A stretch of DNA of 64,000 nt from Carbonactinospora thermoautotrophica (GCF_001543895.1 NZ_JYIJ01000017.1:186001-250000), one strand, 5' to 3'; shown: positions 18,763 through 33,430, numbered from the stretch's first letter. The notes: generated from the sequence alone by a model not told the origin. Program-made: numbers and translations.

Positions 18763-19014
18763 ATGACCGTCAACCCGCTCACCTGGCCGGAGTACGTGCC
18801 GACCGGTTACGCCCCGTCCCCGTGGGGCCTGCGGCGGGCGCAGCCGCTCACCCAGGCCAACGGCAGTGCCACGGTCGTCCTGGACGAGAACCAGACCGAT
18901 CGCTGGTGGTTCCTGGAGTGCGACCCCAACGGCCAGTGGGCCTTCGCCCAGGACAAGACCGGGATGCCGATCGCCGCCGCGTTCGCCGACCTCCTCACGG
19001 CAGGACGCGCCTGA
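18763..19014 (+). CDS. fusion of TgmA-like precursor N-terminus with TgmB ATP-grasp C-terminus
   Basis: An 83 aa protein. Residues 1-48 (GYAPSPWGLRRAQPL, ATVVLDENQT) resemble the ATP-grasp-modified RiPP precursors of the TgmA type. Residues from DRWWFLECDPNGQWAF to the end (GMPIAAAFADLLTAGRA) match the extreme C-terminus of TgmB-type ATP-grasp peptide maturases, which end in a form of FLECNPNGQW...IAAALADLL. So a tgmA-tgmB pair seems to have collapsed by an internal deletion of about 270 codons. ATG at 18763 has AAAGGAG. Whether the product is made or used is unknown; it cannot be a working ligase. It follows the XRE regulator, as tgm systems often do. Confidence 0.65.
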   Translation: MTVNPLTWPEYVPTGYAPSPWGLRRAQPLTQANGSATVVLDENQTDRWWFLECDPNGQWAFAQDKTGMPIAAAFADLLTAGRA

Positions 19015-19123
19015 CACCGCGACAGCACCCGCCACGACCGCCCGCGAAAGGCGGCCGTGGCGGGTTCATTTCGCGCGGGCGACCTCGGACAGCGTGCGGT
19101 GGGCACCGGCGCGCGAGGTCGAC
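18914..19123. repeat. left bracket repeat of the RiPP-like cluster
   Basis: About 200 bases made of the TgmB-like 3' end, a hairpin terminator, and the last 20 or so codons of an RNase H gene on the minus strand (ending ARAK, stop at about 19067). It matches 26722-26925 at roughly 85-90% identity by eye. The RNase H piece is cut off here, whereas the right copy continues into an intact gene. Confidence 0.8.
19028..19064. terminator. hairpin in the left bracket repeat
   Basis: Fifteen-base arms (19028-19042, 19050-19064) with one G-U type mismatch. It would once have separated converging tgmB and RNase H genes. Compared with the right copy at 26830-26865, both arms differ in a paired way (ACG/CGT here, ATG/CAT there). 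Confidence 0.65.
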
Positions 19124-19294
19124 GTTCCCCGACGGCCTTCGACCCACGGTGCCTTCAGTCGGGGGAAACGAGCAGATAATCCCATTACAAAAGCACTTGC
19201 CGACAAACATCCCGATTTCGGGAATAGTCTTGACCGAGGTCGCTACCCACGGCAAGACTTATCGCACAACCAGTGAACAGAGGGGGGAGTCATC
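19124..19294 (+). promoter_or_regulatory. upstream region of the RiPP-like operon
   Basis: This is lower in G+C than the surroundings and holds the perfect inverted repeat TCCCGA-TT-TCGGGA at 19210-19223, a possible operator, with TTGCCG at 19197 and TAGTCT at 19225 as imperfectly spaced promoter-like boxes. No other small gene with a good ribosome binding site is evident. Confidence 0.45.
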
Positions 19295-19411
19295 ATGGCG
19301 CAGCAGTCCGCGCGCGAAGCGGCCAAGCGTGATGTCCGGACCGCGCAGTCGTCCAAGAAGACGTGGCGTCGGCCGCAGTGGCGGGCGCGGAACGTCCGTA
19401 CGCACTGCTAG
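19295..19411 (+). CDS. 38 aa candidate RiPP precursor peptide
   Basis: MAQQSAREAAKRDVRTAQSS begins a 38 aa, very basic peptide that ends in NVRTHC; the second half holds two Trp, one Pro, seven Arg and a single, C-terminal Cys. ATG 19295 follows a strong GGGGGGAG at 5 bases. It is the first gene of an operon with a PqqD-like protein and two radical SAM enzymes, where a precursor is expected, and its stop lies 5 bases before the oxygenase start. Residues 1-20 would be the leader and the Trp/Arg/Pro-rich tail the core. I know no family match. A chance open frame cannot be excluded, but the ribosome binding site and the position argue for it. Confidence 0.6.
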   Translation: MAQQSAREAAKRDVRTAQSSKKTWRRPQWRARNVRTHC

Positions 19412-19416
19412 TTCCC

Positions 19417-20139
19417 ATGGTCGCCGGCCATCGCCAACTCAGCCGGCCGCACGTCGTCCACCCTGAGACCGACCGCGTACCTCCCGACACGTTTCCGGGG
19501 CAACCTGTTCTGCGCGTGGAGAATTTCTTCCGCCCTGATGTCGCAGACGCGCTGCTCCGCTTCCTAGCGTCCGCTGTCGAGTACGAACGGGTCGAGTACG
19601 GGGACCTGACATGTCTGTGGCGTGCGCGAAGACCGCTTGGCGAGGAGTACTTCGGGCCTCTCGTCATGCGGCAAGGGCAAGAACCAGATCCGCTCGCTCT
19701 TGATGCTCTGGCGGTGTTCGAGAGCGAGTGGTTTCTGCGCTGGCTGTCTCGTCTTACCTGCGTCGACGTTTGTTTCCTCCGACCGCCTACCCCATACCGC
19801 CTTGATCCAGGAGACCGGATCTGCCTGCACGATGACATGTCAGATCCGACGCATGCAGTGTCCGTCGCGCTGAATCTCACACCCGGCTGGCGTGCCGGTG
19901 ACGGCGGCGAGACGCGGGTAGGCCGAGTGACCGGGAAGTTTCCAGCACCGACTCCTGCCGATTGCCCGATCGACCTGCATCGGTGGGAGGTGGCATCGGA
20001 CAGCCAACTTCTGGTGCCGGTGTTCAACTCGATCCTGGTTCTGCGCTTGGGATACGAGTTCGCCCACGGGGTCGAGCCCGTCGCCGGCGACCGCTCTCGG
20101 TACTCGGTCACTACGATCTACGGCCATGCCCTTGCCTGA
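19417..20139 (+). CDS. 2-oxoglutarate/Fe(II)-dependent oxygenase
   Basis: A 240 aa protein with a jelly-roll dioxygenase pattern: HxD as HDD (His138, Asp140), a distal His (Ala-His217 in EFAHGVEPV) and Arg228 eleven residues later for the 2-oxoglutarate carboxylate. The RVENFFRPDVADALLRFL start is prolyl-4-hydroxylase-like. ATG 19417 directly follows the candidate precursor stop; an in-frame GTG at 19363, inside the precursor gene, is an alternative. Neither has a strong ribosome binding site. It probably hydroxylates the peptide or a precursor amino acid. G+C is visibly lower than in the flanking chromosome. Confidence 0.75.
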   Translation: MVAGHRQLSRPHVVHPETDRVPPDTFPGQPVLRVENFFRPDVADALLRFLASAVEYERVEYGDLTCLWRARRPLGEEYFGPLVMRQGQEPDPLALDALAVFESEWFLRWLSRLTCVDVCFLRPPTPYRLDPGDRICLHDDMSDPTHAVSVALNLTPGWRAGDGGETRVGRVTGKFPAPTPADCPIDLHRWEVASDSQLLVPVFNSILVLRLGYEFAHGVEPVAGDRSRYSVTTIYGHALA

Positions 20140-20161
20140 GGACGTTTGGGAAGGACAACGA

Positions 20162-20458
20162 GTGGAAGCTATGAGCAAGATCGCCCTTGCCTCGCACGTG
20201 GTCTGCCGGAACACCTCCGGCTCGCTGCGGATGCTGTTCGACCGGGACAAGGGCGTGATGTACGAGCTGAACGAGAGCGCCTCCTCGGTTGTGGGCCTGC
20301 TGGCCGAGAGGCCGCAGACGTTGGAGGAGCTGCTCGACGCATTGACGCAGGAGTACGACGCCCCACGCAACGTGCTCGCCGAGGACGTCGCGCTGCTCAT
20401 CGAGGACTTCCGCAACGCCGGGTTAGTCGAGGTCGAGACGGTCAACCGAGAGGCCTGA
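20162..20458 (+). CDS. PqqD family peptide-binding protein (RRE)
   Basis: A 98 aa winged-helix PqqD-like protein: MLFDRDKGVMYELNESASSV, then LLAERPQTLEELLDALTQEY and VALLIEDFRNAGLVEV, the usual three-strand plus helices arrangement. Members bind leader peptides and present them to a radical SAM enzyme. GTG 20162 has AAGGA at 6 bases; an ATG at 20171 or one at 20126 overlapping the oxygenase are alternatives. It ends one base before the SPASM radical SAM gene, its usual partner. Confidence 0.85.
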   Translation: MEAMSKIALASHVVCRNTSGSLRMLFDRDKGVMYELNESASSVVGLLAERPQTLEELLDALTQEYDAPRNVLAEDVALLIEDFRNAGLVEVETVNREA

Positions 20459-20459
20459 C

Positions 20460-21614
20460 ATGCTCACGGCGGAGGACTACCAGCTTCCCGAGCTCAAGAT
20501 CCCGATCTTGGTGCAGCTCGGCCTCACGTACCGGTGCAACCTGAAATGTTCGCACTGCTACGCCCTCTACCGAAGAGACCGCGACGAGTTCACGTTCGAT
20601 GAGGTCGAGCGCCTGACGGACGAGCTGTGCCAGGCGGGAAGCTGTTCGCTGGTGTATTCGCACGGCGAGAACATGATCCGCCGCGATTTTCACGACATCG
20701 CCGCCTTGTTCCGGGACCGCGGCTTCTACCAGACCCTGATGCTCAACGGGTACTACGTCCGCTCAGCCGAGGACGCCGTCCGGCTGAAGGAAGCGGGTAT
20801 CAACCGCGCGATGGTGTCGCTCGACAGCACCGACCCCGCCACCCACGACCGGGTCCGCGGCCGCCAAGGCGCCTTCCAGACCGCGGTACGGGCGTTGGCG
20901 CTGCTGAAGGAGGCGGGAGTTCCCACGGTCGGCTTTTCCACAACGATCGACACGCACAACTATGCCGACGTGGAGAAGATCGCGGCGTTCGCGGCCGAGC
21001 TGGGCGTGGACGCGGTGAGCTTCATGCAGAACCGCTACAACCGCAAGAACGTCTTCGACCGTTCGGTCTGGCCGCGCTACCGGGATGTATGCGCCCGGCT
21101 GTATGAGCTGATCCTGCGCTATCGCGGCCGCCTCGATGTCTACACCCACGACCCGTTCATGCTCACCCTGCTCGACGAGCGGCTGGACGATCCGCAGGAG
21201 CGAGCCGACTTCATCGGCGCGAACCTGTGCAACGTCGGAACGAGCATGGTCTCCATCGACCCGGTCGGGAACGTGACGGGATGCAACTTCATCGAGGAGA
21301 CGGTCGGCAACGTCCGCGAGGAGCCCTTCGCCGTGATCTGGGAGCGGCTGGTCGACCGGTACTCCGACGCCAAGGAGCCGCCCACCGGACCGTGCGTCAG
21401 CTGCTCGGTGTCGGGCTCGTGCATGGGCGGGTGCAAGGCGTTCCACTACAGCGGCAAGTACGACGAGCGGTGCGGTGCCCAGCGGTTCGGCGACGACCAG
21501 CCGCACGGGTTGCCCACGTCCCAGGTCACGATCAGCGCGCCAGAGCCGCAGCGCGCCCCTGGCGTGTTCTTGGGGATGCCGCGTCCCAGGGCACGGTCAA
21601 CGCGGGGGAAGTAG
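20460..21614 (+). CDS. radical SAM/SPASM domain peptide maturase
   Basis: A 384 aa enzyme. Cys26-x3-Cys30-x2-Cys33 in TYRCNLKCSHC bind the SAM iron-sulphur cluster. The C-terminal SPASM region has NLCNVGTS, VTGCNF, GPCVSCSVSGSCMGGC and ERCGA, enough cysteines for auxiliary clusters. With the PqqD-like gene immediately upstream this is the standard pair of a radical SAM RiPP pathway, forming cross-links, thioethers or epimers on a small peptide. The last 40 residues (Pro/Arg rich) look unstructured. Confidence 0.88.
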   Translation: MLTAEDYQLPELKIPILVQLGLTYRCNLKCSHCYALYRRDRDEFTFDEVERLTDELCQAGSCSLVYSHGENMIRRDFHDIAALFRDRGFYQTLMLNGYYVRSAEDAVRLKEAGINRAMVSLDSTDPATHDRVRGRQGAFQTAVRALALLKEAGVPTVGFSTTIDTHNYADVEKIAAFAAELGVDAVSFMQNRYNRKNVFDRSVWPRYRDVCARLYELILRYRGRLDVYTHDPFMLTLLDERLDDPQERADFIGANLCNVGTSMVSIDPVGNVTGCNFIEETVGNVREEPFAVIWERLVDRYSDAKEPPTGPCVSCSVSGSCMGGCKAFHYSGKYDERCGAQRFGDDQPHGLPTSQVTISAPEPQRAPGVFLGMPRPRARSTRGK

Positions 21615-21619
21615 GGGCG

Positions 21620-23008
21620 ATGCGCGTCTTGTTCGTCAATCCGCACTACACCTACGACCCCTTCACCCTGCTGCTGCATCCGTCCCTCGCCTACGGCTAC
21701 ATGGCCAACCAGCTCAAGGCGAGAGGCCACGACGTCGTCCACGCCGACCTGCCCTTCGAGGGGAACTCTCCGGAGCGGGTCGTGGATTATCTGGAGGACT
21801 ACCGCCCGGACATCGTGGGCGTGACCTGCGTGGCCCAGAGCTACTACCACGCCCTTCAGATCGCGCAGGTCGTAAAGTCCTGGAACCAGACGCTTCCTGT
21901 CGTCTTCGGGGGACCGCACGTGTCGTTCATCCCGTCCGAGTGTCTGGAGCGGCATCGGTGTGTGGACTTCGTGCTGCTCTTCGACGCCGAGCACAGCATG
22001 GCTGACTTGGTCGACGTCCTCGCCGCTGGTGGTGAGCCAGCCGGCCTGCGCAAGGTGCCGGGACTCGCCTACCGGGAAGGGCCGGCGGTACGGGTCACAG
22101 CGCCGGAGCCTCCCGCGAGCGACCTGGACCAGTACGGGATCCCCGACCGGTCGATCTTCGACATGGAGCGGTACCGGCGCTACGACTACGAGACCGTGGT
22201 GATGACTGCCCGCGGCTGCCCGAGCCGGTGCGCGTTCTGCTCCACCACGGCGGCCGGACGCGCGGCGCGCTGGCACAGCCCCCGTCACGTGGTCGACGAG
22301 ATGGAGCAGGTCATCGAGCTGGGGTTTGAGTCCATCTTCTTCGGGGACGACACGTTCTCCGGCAACCCCCGCCGCGCGATCGAGATCTGCGCCGAGATCA
22401 AGCGTCGCGGCATCGACATCCCTTGGACGAGCAACATGCGCGCCCAGGACGCGCGGCCGGAGGTGCTCGACGCGATGCGCGAGGCCGGCGCCTACCGCGT
22501 CTTCGTCGGGTTCGAATCCATCCAGACCCACACCCTGCACCTCGTGAAGAAGGGCACCTCGCCGGAGCGGCTGTACAAGACCGCACGTCGGATCATGGCC
22601 CACGGGCTGGAGCTGCATGCCTCGTTCATCGTCGGCGCGCCAGGAGACACCCACGAAAGCCTGGCCGCTACCCTGGACTACATCCGCATCGTCAATCCGA
22701 CGATCGCGACGTTCAACGTCATGGAGCCTCGGCCGGGCACGGACGTCTACCACAATCCCGCCAAGTACGGGATCACCATCCCCAATCCCTACTGGTACGA
22801 GACCACAGACTGGCTGGACCTGCCGGTTTGCCACACCGAGACACTCACGCAGGAGGAGATCCGTTCCTGGGTGCATCGCTGCTACGAGGAGTTCTGCAGC
22901 GCCGACTTCCGCTCGGAGGAGAAGATGTCGGCGCTCGAACCCGTGCGAGCCGCCTGGGACGCCGCGGCGGAATCCGTCCAGCGGCACCTGCCACTCCTGC
23001 CGGCGTGA
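21620..23008 (+). CDS. cobalamin-binding (B12) radical SAM enzyme
   Basis: A 462 aa protein. Residues 1-140 form a Rossmann-like B12-binding domain (MRVLFVNPHY, DIVGVTCVAQSYYHALQIAQ, PVVFGGPHVSF). The radical SAM core follows, with Cys200-x3-Cys204-x2-Cys207 (CPSRCAFCS), IFFGDDTFSGNPRR and VGFESI. Such enzymes often methylate unactivated carbons or rearrange rings. AGGGG precedes ATG 21620, five bases after the previous stop. In this cluster it could C-methylate the peptide or make a building block. Confidence 0.87.
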   Translation: MRVLFVNPHYTYDPFTLLLHPSLAYGYMANQLKARGHDVVHADLPFEGNSPERVVDYLEDYRPDIVGVTCVAQSYYHALQIAQVVKSWNQTLPVVFGGPHVSFIPSECLERHRCVDFVLLFDAEHSMADLVDVLAAGGEPAGLRKVPGLAYREGPAVRVTAPEPPASDLDQYGIPDRSIFDMERYRRYDYETVVMTARGCPSRCAFCSTTAAGRAARWHSPRHVVDEMEQVIELGFESIFFGDDTFSGNPRRAIEICAEIKRRGIDIPWTSNMRAQDARPEVLDAMREAGAYRVFVGFESIQTHTLHLVKKGTSPERLYKTARRIMAHGLELHASFIVGAPGDTHESLAATLDYIRIVNPTIATFNVMEPRPGTDVYHNPAKYGITIPNPYWYETTDWLDLPVCHTETLTQEEIRSWVHRCYEEFCSADFRSEEKMSALEPVRAAWDAAAESVQRHLPLLPA

Positions 23009-23018
23009 GCAGCCGAGG

Positions 23019-24035
23019 ATGAGCGCCCTCCGCGTCGGCATCATCGGCACCGGCCTGGCCGCCAACTCGCACGCCTTCGACATCCTCTCCAGCGACGATC
23101 TGGAACTCGCCGCGGTGTGCTCCCGGCGCCCGGAGCGCGCCGTTTCGTTCGCGGCGCGATTCGGCGCCGAGCATGTTTTCGCCTCTGTTGAGGAGATGCT
23201 TCGGTCCGGGGCGTGTGAGGCGGTTGTCGTGGCGGTGCCGCCACAGGTCGTCCTGGAGATCTCCCGGGCGGTCCTGGGGTACGGGTATCCGGCGCTTGTC
23301 GAGAAGCCGGTCGCGACCTCGACGCAGGCCCTCGACAAGCTGGCGGCTCTCGCCGAAGCCTCAGGAGCGCCGGCGGTGGTCTGCTTCAACCGGCGGTACC
23401 AGCGGCATGTGCGCGCGGCGGTGGAGGCCGTGAGGGCGGGAACCATCGGGTCCGTGCGCCGCTTCGCGGCCCGCTGGGTCGGCCCCTACGCCAGCCGGTA
23501 TGCCGCCGACGCGCCGACCTACCGATCCCAGGCACGGAACCGCCACGGGCTGTTGCCGGACACCGGCAGCCATATCCTCGACCTGCTCGTCTGGGCTCTC
23601 GACACTCCCTTGACCGTCGAGAACTGCGTCCTGAACCGCAACGAGCGCGGCGCGGATGTCGGCTTCACCGTCACGCTGCGCCTCGGCACCCAGGTACGCG
23701 CCTGCATCAGGGCCAGCGACGAAGCCAACCAGCGGACTGAGCAGCGCCGGGTCGAGTTCGAAGCCGACCACGGGGCGATCGTCGTGGGCGACGACGGCAC
23801 CGCCATCACGACCAGCGACCGCACGGAGTGGATTCCTGCCGAGGAGACCCACCGACCCGTGGACGACCTGGTCGCGCTTCACCACGGCGAACCAGTGCTC
23901 GGCGCGACCCTCCACGATGCTTTGAGGATCAGCCGGTTGCTCGTCGAGGCGTACGACTGTGCCGGTGCTTCTGGGGTCAAGCGGTGGGGACGGCCACGAT
24001 TCAAGCCGTGGGGAAGGTTGAACGGGTCATGTTGA
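23019..24035 (+). CDS. Gfo/Idh/MocA family oxidoreductase
   Basis: A 338 aa NAD(P)-dependent oxidoreductase. GIIGTGLAANSHAF is the Rossmann loop, VEKPVATS holds the conserved EKP lysine, and TGSHILDLLVWAL fits the catalytic D-x3-H region (DTGSH). Usual substrates are sugars, inositols or nucleoside-like compounds. It begins 10 bases after the B12 enzyme and overlaps the next gene by 7 bases (ATGTTGA), so it belongs to the operon. This enzyme suggests that part of the product is a small carbohydrate-like or amino-acid-like unit, not only a modified peptide. Confidence 0.85.
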   Translation: MSALRVGIIGTGLAANSHAFDILSSDDLELAAVCSRRPERAVSFAARFGAEHVFASVEEMLRSGACEAVVVAVPPQVVLEISRAVLGYGYPALVEKPVATSTQALDKLAALAEASGAPAVVCFNRRYQRHVRAAVEAVRAGTIGSVRRFAARWVGPYASRYAADAPTYRSQARNRHGLLPDTGSHILDLLVWALDTPLTVENCVLNRNERGADVGFTVTLRLGTQVRACIRASDEANQRTEQRRVEFEADHGAIVVGDDGTAITTSDRTEWIPAEETHRPVDDLVALHHGEPVLGATLHDALRISRLLVEAYDCAGASGVKRWGRPRFKPWGRLNGSC

Positions 24036-24607
24036 TCGTGGTCGAAGGGCCGTCGGGCGTGGGCAAGACGAGCCTGGCGCAGGCGCTGCCGGGCGCGGTC
24101 CACGTCTCTGAGACCGGAGCCTCCAGTCCCGCACCGTGCCTCGCCGACTTCACCCGCCACCATCTGCACTGCCTCGCCCCGATCGAACGGTTTCTCCTGT
24201 ACGCGGCTCGTACCGCCGTCAAGGCCCGCACGGCCGCGCGGACGCTCGCGGGCGGCAGCGGGATCGTCGTCGTGGATCGTTTCGAGGCGTCGCTGTACGT
24301 CCTCGGCACCGTCACCCTGCGGCTTGCCCCAGACTTCGTCACGGCTCTCCTCGGCGGGCACCTCGCCCACGGCCTGACACCCGACCTGACGGTCTTCCTC
24401 GACTGCGACTATCGCACCTATCGACAGCGCGCCGAACGCCGCGGTGACGGGTTGCTCCTGGACGCAGCCGGGTACGAGCAGCAGCGCAAAGCCTTCCGCC
24501 GGTGGTTCGAGCGGCAGGAGGCCCCGAGCCTGTGGGTGAACACGAGCGACCTCCCACTTGCCGAGCTCAGTCACAAGGTCCTCGCGAACATCGCGAGATG
24601 CCTATGA
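24029..24607 (+). CDS. thymidylate kinase-like P-loop protein
   Basis: A 192 aa protein. The Walker A loop GPSGVGKT lies at residues 7-14, VVVDRFEASLYVLG holds a DR(Y/F) element like that of dTMP kinases, and FLDCDYRTYRQRAERRGDG resembles the lid region. The lid and thymidine-pocket residues differ from housekeeping dTMP kinase, so the substrate may be another small molecule. The start overlaps the previous gene and the end overlaps the next (ATGA), so it is translationally coupled both ways. Confidence 0.75.
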   Translation: MLIVVEGPSGVGKTSLAQALPGAVHVSETGASSPAPCLADFTRHHLHCLAPIERFLLYAARTAVKARTAARTLAGGSGIVVVDRFEASLYVLGTVTLRLAPDFVTALLGGHLAHGLTPDLTVFLDCDYRTYRQRAERRGDGLLLDAAGYEQQRKAFRRWFERQEAPSLWVNTSDLPLAELSHKVLANIARCL

Positions 24608-25140
24608 CAGCTCCAGGGCGTTTCGTACTCACGGGCGGGCATGGGGTCGGCAAGAGCTCGCTGATCCGCGCGCTCGAAGCCCGAGGCGAGGCGGTTGCCT
24701 ACGAAGCGGCACAGGACGTGCGGCTGCGCCTTGAGGCGGAGGGTGTGCCCTTTCCCGCCGACCGGGACGACTTCGAGAGCCTATGCCTCGCGCTGCACCG
24801 GCAACGGGAGGAGCGGGCCAGAACGTGGGGCAAGCGGGTCTTCTTGGACCGCGGTGCCCCGGACCACCTCGTCTACGCCGAACTCGGCCACTGGCCGCTG
24901 TCATCCGAGGAGATCGAGTACTGCCTCGCGGCCCGCTACGACGCGGTCTTCCTCGTTCTCCCACACGAGCGAACAGCAGCGACGATGACCAAGAGCGAGA
25001 CTGTCTTTTCGGAACGACTGACGCGCGCGCTGCGCGAGATGTACGCCGAGCGGCTCGGCATGGTCGTCCATGAGGTGCCGCCGGGCACCCTCGCGCAGCG
25101 GGTACGCTGGGTTCTGGATCTGTGTACGAACGCCCGGTGA
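24604..25140 (+). CDS. AAA_28-like ATP-binding protein
   Basis: A 178 aa P-loop protein. FVLTGGHGVGKSSLIRAL (Walker A, residues 11-18), then a YEAAQDVRLRLEAEG helix, a VFLDRGAPDHLVYAEL element and VFLVLPHER as Walker B strand, match the AAA_28 (NadR/Ttd14-like) group of small kinases or GTPases. The start is coupled (ATGA overlap), with an ATG at 24598 also possible. Together with the kinase before it, it may phosphorylate a pathway intermediate. Substrate is unknown. Confidence 0.75.
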   Translation: MTAPGRFVLTGGHGVGKSSLIRALEARGEAVAYEAAQDVRLRLEAEGVPFPADRDDFESLCLALHRQREERARTWGKRVFLDRGAPDHLVYAELGHWPLSSEEIEYCLAARYDAVFLVLPHERTAATMTKSETVFSERLTRALREMYAERLGMVVHEVPPGTLAQRVRWVLDLCTNAR

Positions 25141-25411
25141 GGTGAACCTTAGTGGCTGACGCACTGCGCGGCCGGGCGTCCGGGTCGAGCAGGATGATTT
25201 TCGACGCTGCGAGCCGGAGCCCCCGGCGCATGACGGGCGCGCTGCCCACGCTGCAGGGCGCCAGGTGCCATGGCGGCGCGCGTCACCATACCTCCGTTCC
25301 GTCCGTCTGAGACGCGACGTTCATGCATACGGGGCAAGCTCGCTGTCGCTCATCCGCGCCACGCTCCACACTCGTGCCGTTCGACCCTGCGACTCTAGGA
25401 AGAGGACGACG

Positions 25412-26719
25412 TTGGCCGACCTGCTCCCTGTGAACCCGTATCGGGGCACTCGTGACTTCCTGCCGGAGGAGATGGCCGTCCGACAGGCCGTGTTCTCGAA
25501 GTTCTACAAGGTCATCGAAACCTACGGTTTCCAGCGATACGACGGCCCGCTGCTGGAGCCGGCGGAGATCTACGAGGCCAAATCCGGCCGGGAGATCGCC
25601 GACCAGCAGCTGTACACACTCACCGACCGCTCAGGCCGCCGGCTCGCGCTTCGGCCGGAGATGACCCCCTCGGTGGCGCGCATCGTGGCCCGGTTCGCGG
25701 GCCAGCTGGACTTCCCCTTGCGGTGGTACAGCCACGTCAACTGTTTCCGCTACGAACGCCCGCAGCGCGGCCGGGTCCGCGAGCACTGGCAGATCAACTG
25801 CGACATCTTCGGGTCGGAATCCGAGGTTTGCGAGATCGAGATCTTCGACCTCGTCCACGACCTCATGGCCGCCGTCGGCGCCACCCGGGAGCAGTACGTC
25901 CTGCGAGTGAACTGCCGGGTGATCGCCGAGTCGGCGATGCGCCACATCGTGGGTGTGCCCGAGGAGAGCCTGCCGCAGGTCTTCCAGGTCGTGGACCGGT
26001 GGGAAAAGGTCACCGAGGAAGAACGGGTCGCCGACCTCGCCGAGGCGGGTCTGGACGACAAGCGGATCGAACGGCTCAATGAGGTCCTCACCGGTGACGG
26101 CGGCTTCGTTGACGAGCTGCCGGCGGACGAACTGGCCGACTCCAACATCGCGAAGCTGCTCAAGCGCGACGAGCGCAATCTCTTCAAGTTCGACCCGCTG
26201 ATCATCCGGGCCTTCGAGTACTACACCTCGACCGTCTTCGAGGTCTTCGACACCGATCCCGTCAACCGCCGTTCCCTGTTCGGCGGCGGCCGCTACCGGG
26301 ACCTCGCCGGGCTGTTCACCACCCAGAAGATCCCCGGCATCGGCTTCGGGATGGGCGACGTCACCGTGCTCGATTTCCTTGAGACCCACGGCCTGCTGCC
26401 GACTCCCCGCATCGGCAGCGACGTCGCCGTCATCCCGGTCAAGGCGCAGCTGAACGAAGCGGCTCGCACGGTGACCCGCTCCCTGCGCGCAGCCGGGATC
26501 AAGACCATCCTTCCGCTGGTCGAACGCTCGCTGTCTGCCGAGATGAAGCGAGCCGGACGCAACGGCTGCCGCGCGGCCGTCATCATCGGTGAGAACGAGT
26601 GGCATCGCCGCGCCGTCACCGTGCGAGACATGCGCACCGGCGAGCAGTCCGAAGTGCCCTCAGATCAGGTCGTCGACCGGGTCACGCAGATTTTGCAAGC
26701 CGAACCGGGAACGGACTGA
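25412..26719 (+). CDS. histidyl-tRNA synthetase paralogue
   Basis: A 435 aa class II synthetase of the HisRS family: GTRDFLPEEM at residue 12, motif 2 FRYERPQRGRVREHWQINCD, the HisA-type element RAFEYYTSTVFEVF with its catalytic Arg, and GGGRYRDLAGLF. Motif 3 reads GIGFGMGDVTV, without the arginine normally found in GxGxER. The C-terminal anticodon-binding domain is present (DVAVIPVKAQLNEAA). TTG 25412 has GGAAGAGG upstream. It stands 271 bases after the AAA_28 gene, as the last gene of the cluster, and a housekeeping hisS should exist elsewhere. It may be a resistance copy, or make His-tRNA for peptide tailoring. The stop lies only a few bases before the right bracket repeat. Confidence 0.85.
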   Translation: MADLLPVNPYRGTRDFLPEEMAVRQAVFSKFYKVIETYGFQRYDGPLLEPAEIYEAKSGREIADQQLYTLTDRSGRRLALRPEMTPSVARIVARFAGQLDFPLRWYSHVNCFRYERPQRGRVREHWQINCDIFGSESEVCEIEIFDLVHDLMAAVGATREQYVLRVNCRVIAESAMRHIVGVPEESLPQVFQVVDRWEKVTEEERVADLAEAGLDDKRIERLNEVLTGDGGFVDELPADELADSNIAKLLKRDERNLFKFDPLIIRAFEYYTSTVFEVFDTDPVNRRSLFGGGRYRDLAGLFTTQKIPGIGFGMGDVTVLDFLETHGLLPTPRIGSDVAVIPVKAQLNEAARTVTRSLRAAGIKTILPLVERSLSAEMKRAGRNGCRAAVIIGENEWHRRAVTVRDMRTGEQSEVPSDQVVDRVTQILQAEPGTD

Positions 26720-26724
26720 CCGGA

Positions 26725-26820
26725 ATGCCACCCAACGGCCAGTGGGCCTTCATCCAAGAGAAGACCGGGATGCCGATCGCCGCCGCGTTCGCCGACCTCC
26801 TCGCGACAGGACGCGCCTGA
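26725..26820 (+). pseudogene. truncated TgmB-like ATP-grasp C-terminus
   Basis: Only the last 30 codons remain (NGQWAFIQEKTGMPIAAAFAD and on to TGRA). The upstream junction has a one-base deletion relative to the left copy, which breaks the LECDPN frame. An ATG at 26725 exists by chance, without a ribosome binding site of its own. It is the remnant left at the border of the inserted cluster. Confidence 0.65.
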
Positions 26821-26829
26821 CACCCCGTG

Positions 26830-26865
26830 CCCGCCATGGCCGCCCATGCGGGCGGCCATGGCGGG
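26830..26865. terminator. hairpin between tgmB remnant and RNase H gene
   Basis: Perfect 15-base arms (26830-26844, 26851-26865), serving the converging HisRS/tgmB-remnant side and the RNase H gene. Confidence 0.75.
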
Positions 26866-26866
26866 T

Positions 26867-27478
26867 TCACTTCGCGCGGGCGACCTCGGACAGCGTGCGG
26901 TGGGCGTACCGGCGCGCGAGGCCGATGGCTTCTTCCCAGCTGAAATACCCGTTCAGGGTGCGCAGCGCGAGCTTGGCCATGGAGTCGGCCACCTCGTTCA
27001 GCGGGTGCCCGGCATGGCCTTTGACCCATTCAACCTTGTACCGGCGTGGGTTGCTCGCGAGCTTGCGGGAGAGCTTCACGAGCGTGGGTGTCCGGCCGTT
27101 CTTGCGGTACAGGGTGTACCCGTCGGGGTAGATGAGGTTTCCTCTACGCCATGCGCGCAGGTACTCCACGGCGTCCTGGGAGTCGCACAAGATGATGAAT
27201 GGATGGTTGCCATCGCTCTCGATGGCGACGTTCACGGTGCGGAGCTCCGCGACCAGCGTCTGGGCTGGGCCGACGATGCGCTCAGGGTGCGGGAAAGCGC
27301 CGAGGCCGAACCGGCCGGCGGTGGTCACGAACGCGTAGCCGACACGCCCGTTCTGGGTGGCGGCGTCGGTCGCCACCACGATCGGACCTTGGTCTGCCAG
27401 CGTGAATCCTTCCAGCGTCTCCTTGTGGTGGAAGTTGAACCACTTGGGCCGCCGCCGAACACTCTCTCCCCGCTTCAT
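26867..27478 (-). CDS. RNase H family protein
   Basis: A 203 aa protein. All four acidic residues of the RNase HI active site are recognisable: IVVATDAATQNGRVGYAFV (Asp38), AELRTVNVAIE (Glu), FIILCDSQDAV (Asp) and VEWVKGHAGHPLNEVADSM with the final Asp and the WVKGHxGHxxN signature. It degrades RNA in RNA:DNA hybrids. ATG 27478 has AAAGG at 5 bases; the frame remains open to an ATG at 27574 in an AT-rich segment holding repeated GATATCAACATATCAAC-like words. The extreme 3' end is duplicated at 19067-19123. Confidence 0.85.
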   Translation of the reverse strand: MKRGESVRRRPKWFNFHHKETLEGFTLADQGPIVVATDAATQNGRVGYAFVTTAGRFGLGAFPHPERIVGPAQTLVAELRTVNVAIESDGNHPFIILCDSQDAVEYLRAWRRGNLIYPDGYTLYRKNGRTPTLVKLSRKLASNPRRYKVEWVKGHAGHPLNEVADSMAKLALRTLNGYFSWEEAIGLARRYAHRTLSEVARAK

Positions 27479-28190: not shown

Positions 28191-29483
28191 CTAATTCTTC
28201 TTCGGCGAGCTGCCGCGCGCGTGCGCTTCAAGTTGTTCCCGCCATACCCGCGCGGCGCTGCTCTCCCCTACCGGGAGCGTCGCCAGCATGCGTACTCGGT
28301 GGGTTACCCGGTGAGACGACAAGCAACCCAATGTAGGCAGCACAGCAGCGACGACATCTGCAGCTCCTTGCACGTCGCCGCTGCGCACCATCACCTCTGC
28401 GAGGAGCAGATTCCAGAGGACATGGGATCGCAACGGCAAAGAGGGGTCAGCAGCCGCATAGCACACTGAGTTCTGGGCCTGTGCCCAATCGCCGAGGTCG
28501 GCCGCGACTCGTCCGGCCGCTCCGACTAGCTCGCTCTCGTTGAAGAACATGGCCCAGTCCGGATCTGTCCCGGCACGTTCGTAGGCGTCCATCGCACGCC
28601 GCATCGCCGCGTTGGCTTCGCGTTCCGCGCCCAGCAGCGCCCACGCTTGGGCTTCCCGTACTGCCAGCAGCGACGCGACACGACCTGTTCGAGGAGTGTG
28701 TTCCGCACCGAGACGTGCCAGGCGTACGGCCTCATGAAGGCGGCCGAGACGGGCGGACTGCTGGCTCATCGAGTTGGCAGCACACGCGACGATTGCGTGG
28801 TCTCCGGCGAGCTGGGCCAGGAAAAGCGCTTCCTTGTACAAGTAGCGAGCACGGCTCTGGTTGCCGATATCGAACTGCATCACCCCGGCCAGCACGTATG
28901 ACCAGGCAGCGGCGGATTGCAGGCCCGGCGTGTCTACGCCAACTTCAAGTTGTCCGGTTAGCTCCTTAAGTTGAGCCTCGGCGAGGACGACGAGTTGTCC
29001 AGCGCCGAACTTGCGCATAAGGCCCTGCAACTGCGCCAGGGTGCGTTCGGCGTCCTCCACGTAGGCGTTGACGGCCTTCTTACCGTCGCCGGGTGACAGC
29101 GGCGTAGGAGCGGCCATCGCCAAGGCGCCGGCCAGGAATTCGCGTCGCTGCACGGGGTCCTCCAGGTCGCGCGTGGAGTCCACCGTAGGCGCGCCGACCG
29201 GCCTTGGCGACACCGTTCGCCTGCGGGTGCTGCGCGGCGGGTGGGGCCGAAAACCCAGCGCCGTGCAGGGCATTCCCGTCACGGCCTCCAGCGCCCGCCG
29301 GTACCGGCCCTGCGGCCACTGGACATCGCCGGCTTCCCATTTCGCGACCAGCCGCACGTCGCAGCGTAACTCGTCGCCGGCCGCCTCCCCGGCCCGGTTG
29401 ATCGCGGCGGCGAACTCTCCCTGCCCCATGTTCAGCGACTCGCGCACACCGCGCAGGACGTCGTTCGGCGTTCTTTCGTGCAC
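28191..29483 (-). CDS. XRE-type regulator with internal RR-x-x-L segment (module D)
   Basis: A 430 aa paralogue of the module A regulator. The helix-turn-helix (NDVLRGVRESLNMGQGEFAAA, RLVAKWEAGDVQWPQGRYRR) comes first, then a Pro/Arg-rich linker, then VQRREFLAGALAMAAPTPLS, again Tat-signal-like but internal, then tetratricopeptide-like helices (ARYLYKEALFLAQLAGDHAI, EAVRLARLGAEHTP). I chose GTG at 29483 with GGGGGAG just upstream; a start at 29549 or 29693 is possible. It is followed by a GNAT gene, and the divergent side holds a relic of the 80-86 aa gene, mirroring module B. Confidence 0.82.
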   Translation of the reverse strand: MHERTPNDVLRGVRESLNMGQGEFAAAINRAGEAAGDELRCDVRLVAKWEAGDVQWPQGRYRRALEAVTGMPCTALGFRPHPPRSTRRRTVSPRPVGAPTVDSTRDLEDPVQRREFLAGALAMAAPTPLSPGDGKKAVNAYVEDAERTLAQLQGLMRKFGAGQLVVLAEAQLKELTGQLEVGVDTPGLQSAAAWSYVLAGVMQFDIGNQSRARYLYKEALFLAQLAGDHAIVACAANSMSQQSARLGRLHEAVRLARLGAEHTPRTGRVASLLAVREAQAWALLGAEREANAAMRRAMDAYERAGTDPDWAMFFNESELVGAAGRVAADLGDWAQAQNSVCYAAADPSLPLRSHVLWNLLLAEVMVRSGDVQGAADVVAAVLPTLGCLSSHRVTHRVRMLATLPVGESSAARVWREQLEAHARGSSPKKN

Positions 29484-29755
29484 TGGCTCCCCCGACGGAC
29501 TTGATCCTGCCGCGTCCTTGTCTTCCGCCGAGTATCGGATTAAGAACATTCCACCGCCAATCACCCTGCGGAATGACATGGAAAAGGCCGGGGAACGGCC
29601 AACGGAACACCGTCGAAACGGCAGGCGCGGCAAGGGCACGGTGATCGCGAACCGACCACCACCGCGTGGAGGCAACAGCCAATGCTCGGTCACCAGAGCA
29701 TGCGCCAGACACGCGCCGAGGATTCCCGCACACTCGACCAGACCGCATCCCGCGT

Positions 29756-32114: not shown

Positions 32115-33284
32115 GCGGGGACTCCACGCTGCTCGATCCGGTGTCCGGCCACCCGATGTCGGCGCGCCCATGGCGCCGGTGCCGGTGGGGGTGGCGCACG
32201 TCGTGGATCTGGAACCCGAGCGAGTGCTGCAGAAAGTAGCGCGGCTGTTCCTCTAACCCGGCCACGACCGCGGCCCGCTCGGAGACCTCGACCACCTGGA
32301 AGTCTTCCCCCTCGGGCAGCCGCGCGGCAATCTCACGCAACTCCTCCGCCGAGGGGACGCGGTGTGCCACGGCGCACCGGTCGAGCTGCTGGGTCGGGCA
32401 GATGTCGCACAGCTCCCGGATGCCGTAGTGGCCGTTGTAGTCCGGCTCCCCGTGGACGAACGAGACCGCGCAGCTGGTCTTGCGGAACAGCGGCCCGCCG
32501 TTACCGGTCCGGAACGCCTCCAGCACGCGCTTCTCGAGCGTCTCGGGCACGATCTTGCGCCGGGCGGTCTCCCGTACGGCTCGGGCAGCCCGTTTGCCCG
32601 GTAGTAGGCGGCGATCTCATCCCGGTAGAACAGCCCGGTGAACACGGTCGCGTGCGCGACCCGGCTCAGTTCGACCGCGCGGATCAGGTGCTCCGGGGAG
32701 TCGTTCAGGCCGGGTACGAGCGGCCGCCAGTACAGGACCGCCCGGTACCGACCGGCCAACTGGGCGGCGAGCCGCAGCGACTTCTCCGCGACCTCTTTGG
32801 GGAACGGCTCGATGCGCTGGTCGTCGATGCCGGAATAGGTGAACAACAGCGTCACCCGCAGGTTGCCCAGCGCGTTCAGCCGCACACAGTCCTCGGCGTC
32901 CACCCGATAGCGGGTGATCACCAGCACATGGTTGCGCAGGCCGCGCTCGTCCAGGTCCTCCAGCACCGCGAACAGGTGGTCTTTGACCTTTGGCAGGAAC
33001 GGGTCGGTGGCGCGGTTGAAGATCTGCAACGGTGTGACGTCCGGCTGGAAGTACCGGTGGTTCACCAGCAGCTCAACCGCCTCAGCATCGGTCATCAGCG
33101 CCCGGGGTTGGCGCATGTCCCACGCGCCGTAGACGTGGCGGATGCAGTACGCGCAGTCCAGCGGACAACCCATCACATGATTCAGCGACAGCCCCGACTT
33201 GCGGTACTCCACCACCTCCTTCGCGCGCTCCGATAACCGGGCGACCTGCTCGACGGACAGCAAGGGCACGAACGTTCTCCTCAT
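32107..33284 (-). pseudogene. radical SAM protein interrupted by one frameshift
   Basis: The first part (33284 to about 32573) has GCPLDCAYCIRHVYGAWDM, the SAM cluster CxxxCxxC, then DVTPLQIFNRATDPFLP and TLLFTYSGIDDQRIEPFPK, resembling spore-photoproduct-lyase-like radical SAM proteins. At the G run 32571-32573 the frame is lost; one extra G would continue into ETARRKIVPETLEKRVLEAF and on to a C-terminal part with CDICPTQQLDRC. Conservation on both sides of the break suggests a recent mutation or a sequencing error. ATG 33284 has GGAGG upstream. It heads the operon with the exonuclease and kinase. Confidence 0.75.
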
Positions 33285-33430
33285 CACTTCCTCCAAGTGC
33301 GCAGCCGACGAATCCGAGCCCGCAGGCGGCCTTCGGAACGATCCGAGGGTGGGCGCGCCTCAGGCCTCCGACACCGCACTACCAGGTCAATGGCTAATTT
33401 CGGTGTCCGTTTTGTCCCACGGTCCGTAGG

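Follow-up and report, generated by a model that had tools for sequence, protein, structure and literature searches.

Several aminoacyl-tRNA synthetases have natural inhibitors, one of which became a drug. Synthetase copies encoded within biosynthetic gene clusters are known to serve different roles: AcmD confers resistance and SbzA acts in biosynthesis (PMC12945691), and AbmK combines resistance with biosynthesis (PMC9032320). Here, a gene set of Carbonactinospora thermoautotrophica is described, in which a short peptide gene and two radical S-adenosylmethionine (SAM) enzymes occur together with a second histidyl-tRNA synthetase (HisRS). It is located in a stretch of 64,000 nucleotides (GCF_001543895.1, NZ_JYIJ01000017.1:186001-250000), which is referred to as the window. 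We regard it as fairly probable that this set is a new unit of the type forming ribosomally synthesized and post-translationally modified peptides (RiPPs), with a product that most likely inhibits HisRS and a cluster HisRS that is a copy of the target from a foreign lineage. The product is perhaps antibiotic-like.

An earlier note, made from the sequence alone, had described a tightly packed gene order. All of these genes were confirmed, closely spaced, in this order and on one strand, and the Pfam and NCBIfam matches agree with their assignments. The features are as follows:

19295-19411, + strand: precursor peptide gene (38 amino acids); the last 15 residues (WRRPQWRARNVRTHC, codons 19364-19408) are nearly invariant across the relatives
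19417-20139, + strand: 2-oxoglutarate (2OG)-Fe(II) oxygenase (Pfam PF13640 above cut-off); reading frame open from 19363
20126-20458, + strand: PqqD-family peptide-binding protein (RiPP recognition element, RRE; PF05402, 57.7 bits, cut-off 23.4)
20460-21614, + strand: radical SAM/SPASM enzyme (Pfam/NCBIfam), in which SHGEN replaces the customary GGEP
21620-23008, + strand: B12-binding radical SAM enzyme (PF02310 and PF04055)
23019-24035, + strand: Gfo/Idh/MocA oxidoreductase (Pfam/NCBIfam), with the fold of sugar-type dehydrogenases
23985-24032, + strand: C-terminal tail of the oxidoreductase (WGRPRFKPWGRLNGSC), near-invariant, predicted disordered and precursor-like
24029-24607, + strand: thymidylate-kinase-like P-loop kinase (kinase 1; PF02223 above cut-off), in type A clusters only
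24604-25140, + strand: AAA_28 P-loop kinase (kinase 2; PF13521, 91.9 bits), in type A clusters only
25412-26719, + strand: second HisRS, of an archaeal-like lineage (TIGR00442, 332 bits, cut-off 286.75), with catalytic and anticodon-binding domains

While the gene set stood as proposed, two of the start positions did not. The 2OG gene had been started at 19363, inside the precursor gene, and most likely begins with ATG 19417, 6 nucleotides after the precursor stop codon. The HisRS start was corrected to TTG 25412 or GTG 25430, about 270 nucleotides after kinase 2. For the PqqD gene, ATG 20171 is an alternative possible start.

The 38-amino-acid reading frame, which had been put forward as a candidate precursor, proved genuine. 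A short open reading frame (ORF) ending in WRRP[QLM]WRARNVRTHC and a stop codon was present in every locus (12 further actinomycete genomes, 13 together with the window), and 14 of these 15 residues are invariant. For the last 15 codons, compared over 11 loci, the mean proportion of synonymous differences (pS) was 0.57, with synonymous sites near saturation, and that of nonsynonymous differences (pN) was 0.018. The C-terminus of the precursor is under very strong purifying selection. An overlapping gene does not account for this conservation, because the oxygenase gene of Nocardia is located elsewhere. The peptides comprise 20 to 38 amino acids, several from Nocardia only 20 (MAKRPWRRPQWRARNVRTHC), and a separate conserved leader was not seen. 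A selected precursor gene conserved beside modifying enzymes and a PqqD/RRE partner bears out the earlier assignment to a RiPP-type cluster. Homologues lacking a short conserved peptide in their neighbourhood would have spoken against this assignment; such a peptide was found in every locus.

When genome contigs were scanned for the SPASM enzyme, ten loci were obtained, from Nonomuraea, Nocardia (six loci), Saccharothrix, Lentzea and an actinobacterial metagenome-assembled genome (MAG). Two more Nocardia genomes were added; loci L094 and L026 represent one and the same contig. Altogether, the SPASM enzyme is present in 8 of 150 Nocardia genomes, and in a sample of 395 genomes of the class only the window's own genome matched at E ≤ 1e-35. 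The genome samples of the order, the class, the Nocardiaceae and the order of Saccharothrix gave no new clusters, and a tblastn search of plasmids with the SPASM enzyme gave only matches of about 30% identity (MftC, halophile pseudo-SAM). All ten loci and both added Nocardia genomes contain the genes for precursor, PqqD, SPASM enzyme, B12 enzyme (61-78% identity in all loci) and oxidoreductase. The HisRS gene and the 2OG gene recur wherever the sequence of the locus reaches far enough, with the exception of the 2OG gene in L031; 2OG homologues are thus present in every locus but L031 (no match) and the truncated L026. Since the core set recurs in all relatives, the grouping of these genes is not due to chance.

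Two arrangements were distinguished. In type A loci (the window, L022, L028 and L029) the oxygenase gene lies between the precursor and PqqD genes, and the kinases are present. In the type B loci of Nocardia the oxygenase gene follows that of the oxidoreductase and is itself followed by a PhyH-type dioxygenase gene; kinases are absent. L025 and L027 (type B) additionally carry a carbamoyltransferase and a methyltransferase, and in L031 a gene of glycosyltransferase family 3 replaces the kinases. The suggestion that the kinases add a small unit was not upheld for the cluster as such: they do not belong to the core, and such a role would be lineage-specific at best, as the Nocardia clusters have PhyH in their stead, in some cases joined by carbamoyltransferase and methyltransferase. 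On the simplest reading, the varying accessory genes represent lineage-specific tailoring of a small product.

The HisRS genes belong to two unrelated lineages, which occupy the same position; every cluster that can be followed to its end carries one of them. The type A enzymes (window, Nonomuraea, Saccharothrix, Lentzea, MAG) are archaeal-like and closest to 1WU7. The type B enzymes of Nocardia share 27-29% identity with them and are closest to 6NHI, followed by 3NET and human-type enzymes. Both types score above the curated HisRS cut-off and retain the core catalytic residues of the class, and every cluster-bearing genome holds at least one other HisRS elsewhere. Both lineages have ordinary-looking HisRS relatives in other Actinomycetota. 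Of 296 Actinomycetota genomes, 15 possess a relative of type B (38-52% identity), each at a single locus. In the MAG, whose own cluster carries type A, a type B relative lies between a dTMP-kinase/holB (tmk/holB) pair and topA; the two contigs of this MAG share an overlap of 145 bp that contains two mismatches. In another genome, aspS has a type A relative (40%) as its neighbour. The sole non-cluster HisRS in the window's genome represents a third lineage and adjoins an apparent rpoB (G000:C17:693905-694873; L051, L057), and 14 relatives from the same order have one HisRS each. The cluster-borne extra copy suggests that HisRS is the target of the product and that the spare copy protects the producer. 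Because complete, interchangeable synthetases of foreign lineages sit beside a resident copy, self-resistance by target replacement is the proposed role. The Asp of the GGRYD motif, kept by 1WU7 and the aspS-linked relative, is replaced in all five type A cluster enzymes, which is taken as a further sign in this direction. In Saccharothrix, two further HisRS-like genes occur about 10 kb apart near an apparent non-ribosomal peptide synthetase ORF (L075, G479:C45:116000-135900), possibly another HisRS-linked cluster.

Several observations weigh against a HisRS inhibitor with a protective HisRS copy. No canonical actinobacterial hisS was found in the window's genome, so that a sensitive resident target is not evident there. 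Pfam detects no anticodon-binding domain in the type B HisRS, and its AlphaFold model is poor (mean predicted local distance difference test, pLDDT, 45), with only the C-terminal alpha/beta region fair. Genes for an exporter and a protease are absent from the island, as had been stated before, and the product, its activity and the resistance of the HisRS are all matters that we infer. Moreover, the cluster synthetases may be biosynthetic, as known for SbzA (PMC12945691) and AbmK (PMC9032320). In such a pathway, built on the same RiPP, HisRS would not be the target and would furnish histidyl-AMP or His-tRNA or transfer histidine to the product. The presence of HisRS in every cluster with its end in view fits this reading, and the replaced Asp of the GGRYD motif in the type A cluster enzymes could also mean a new reaction. 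Published copies, which confer resistance, do biosynthesis, or both, lend this explanation some plausibility. However, a single co-evolved enzyme would account less well than exchangeable target copies for two unrelated lineages that both have ordinary-looking relatives. In addition, the island showed neither a peptide aminoacyl-tRNA ligase (PEARL), a cyclodipeptide synthase nor any other partner that depends on tRNA, and no tRNA gene lies near any cluster, which excludes a dedicated tRNA-His there. A biosynthetic HisRS is therefore considered possible and rather unlikely.

A redox cofactor or signal made in the manner of pyrroloquinoline quinone (PQQ) or mycofactocin, with HisRS being incidental, would be consistent with a short invariant precursor that has no variable core, with the pair of PqqD and SPASM enzyme, and with the best sub-threshold NCBIfam matches of the latter (MftC, AhbD and NirJ2 among them). 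It is nevertheless improbable, as the distribution is patchy and shaped by lateral movement, the tailoring genes are lineage-specific, no family of cofactor-dependent dehydrogenases is linked, and HisRS is kept in every complete cluster. A prokaryotic viperin-type system, either antiphage or based on nucleotide analogues, in which radical SAM enzymes are combined with nucleotide kinases, appears most improbable and was set aside. PADLOC reported a pVip match for the SPASM enzyme (50.6 bits over 164 residues, no curated cut-off), and the B12 enzyme and kinase 1 moderately match the two parts of the candidate system PDC-M51 (PDC-M51A and PDC-M51B, respectively; kinase 1 also VakA). However, the pVip match spans only the general radical SAM core of a protein which also possesses a SPASM domain, the Nocardia clusters have no kinases, and the selected peptide with its PqqD partner indicates a peptide substrate.

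For a RiPP-derived HisRS inhibitor, the following course would be expected from the protein families. The PqqD/RRE protein would present the peptide to both radical SAM enzymes (SPASM and B12), of which the latter might methylate or otherwise alkylate it; the 2OG enzyme might hydroxylate it, and the oxidoreductase could act on an alcohol, carbonyl or imine. Lineage-specific tailoring would follow from the kinases in the window and from PhyH, carbamoyltransferase and methyltransferase in Nocardia. The SPASM enzyme retains CxxxCxxC and has SHGEN at the position of GGEP, the usual radical SAM motif. Below the NCBIfam thresholds, it matches AhbD, NirJ2, GeoRSP and MftC best. As AhbD and MftC carry out oxidative decarboxylations, it is a reasonable guess by analogy that the SPASM enzyme decarboxylates the C-terminal Cys of the precursor. 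The product is probably built from the Thr-His-Cys end, which might, as a conjecture, be turned into a mimic of histidine or histidyl-adenylate. The cluster HisRS would then keep the translation of the producer going and may also supply activated histidine; export and proteolysis would depend on functions of the host. We infer in this scheme that the enzymes act on the peptide, and likewise the residues altered, the binding of the product to HisRS and the resistance of the cluster HisRS. Outside the island, at 32256-33296 (- strand) of the window, there is another weak radical SAM match.

The oxidoreductase possesses an unusual C-terminus. Across the loci these proteins are 31-45% identical to that of the window, and their last 16 residues are near-invariant in all loci (W-x-RPR-x-K-x-x-G-R-L-N-G-[SA]-C; L031 being most divergent). 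The AlphaFold model (mean pLDDT 90) is confident except for residues 320-338, which are predicted to be disordered. Tail and precursor share WxRP at nearly equal distance from the end as well as the terminal Cys. Among the 221 genes called in the loci, WxRP within the last 20 residues occurs only in the 11 oxidoreductases, and a terminal Cys is shared by just 2 further genes. A hidden Markov model of the precursor matched the tails weakly (best E 1e-3 in the set of 11, negligible for that of the window); the likeness hence lies in WxRP, in the spacing between this motif and the end, and in the terminal Cys. The tail might dock to the shared machinery or serve as a second substrate; the conserved terminal Cys would favour the second option. 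A bolder proposal, which we hold to be doubtful, is that a RiPP family makes the first natural inhibitor dedicated to HisRS, and that the radical SAM machinery modifies both the free peptide WRRPxWRARNVRTHC and the oxidoreductase tail sharing WxRP...Cys-COOH, with the activity or loading of the oxidoreductase depending on it.

On either side, the gene set is bordered by a copy of a direct repeat, which is imperfect and about 205 bp long:

18915-19122, no strand: left copy, aligning with 26722-26925 (longest ungapped block 97 nucleotides at 93%)
26722-26925, no strand: right copy, beginning 2 nucleotides after the HisRS stop codon

The repeats enclose 19123-26721, a 7.6-kb island which is exactly the set from precursor to HisRS, with HisRS inside. 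The left copy contains the end of a 93-amino-acid gene and corresponds to the 3' terminus of an RNase H gene, of which an intact version lies right of the island. These two genes thus probably adjoined before the island was inserted, for example through a single cross-over. The G+C content between the repeats is 66.5%, compared to 71.0% in the window and 71.5% in the left flank; the lower value noted previously thus holds against these two, but the right flank is also low (67.8%). Direct repeats, lower G+C content and patchy occurrence support lateral acquisition and tie HisRS to the unit, and the gene set is probably mobile. In line with mobility, a gene of the phage integrase family lies directly upstream of the Nocardia kruczakiae cluster (L024:8230-9282). 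Elsewhere in the window, 28194-29693 (- strand) is part of a family that the host genome holds in five copies; one of them is 75% identical and has an in-frame TGA. The earlier note had missed the flanking repeats, the probable self-resistance role of HisRS and the precursor-like oxidoreductase tail.

Its statement that no characterised pathway has this set agrees with the literature searched, in which none matched. Full-text literature yielded no description of the peptide or of the gene combination and no HisRS inhibitor of natural origin; subscription papers and preprints lay largely outside this coverage, so that an earlier description is possible. The HisRS inhibitors that did turn up were all histidinol-type analogues or fragments from screening. 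With its own HisRS copy, the cluster offers a direct and testable route to a natural HisRS inhibitor, and a near-invariant, leaderless precursor together with a substrate-like oxidoreductase tail would be a new arrangement in RiPP biology.

The likeness to mycofactocin and PQQ consists in a short invariant precursor, a PqqD-type partner (PqqD/MftB) and a SPASM enzyme from the neighbourhood of AhbD, NirJ and MftC. In contrast, the precursor here ends in Cys, and a B12 radical SAM enzyme, a 2OG oxygenase, a tailed oxidoreductase and HisRS are added. The SPASM enzyme is about 31% identical to MftC over 77% and misses the MftC equivalog score (128.4 bits, cut-off 265); together with the THC end of the precursor, which has no MftA-type C-terminus, this led to rejection of the mycofactocin pathway. 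The PQQ pathway was rejected likewise (PqqE equivalog 98.4 bits, cut-off 381.35; PqqD equivalog 25.8 bits, cut-off 46), as was the pearlin pathway, since no LanB-like PEARL occurred among the island proteins or the recurrent neighbours scanned. Borosins resemble the locus in that the C-terminus of a modifying enzyme is itself a peptide resembling a substrate. Here, however, the bearer is a Gfo/Idh/MocA oxidoreductase and not an alpha-N-methyltransferase fused to its core peptide, for which reason the class was not assigned; a free precursor exists besides, and modification of the tail is hypothetical. Microcin C, compared only in how it works, likewise has a short ribosomal peptide as the origin of a synthetase inhibitor; its target is aspartyl-tRNA synthetase, whereas the island has radical SAM chemistry and no MccB-type adenylating enzyme. 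The clusters of synthetase inhibitors (albomycin with AbmK, ascamycin with AcmD, SB-203208 with SbzA, and obafluorin) share with the island a divergent, complete in-cluster synthetase distinct from the resident copy. In contrast to these, the synthetase here is a HisRS, the pathway begins from a ribosomal peptide, and the resistance is predicted.

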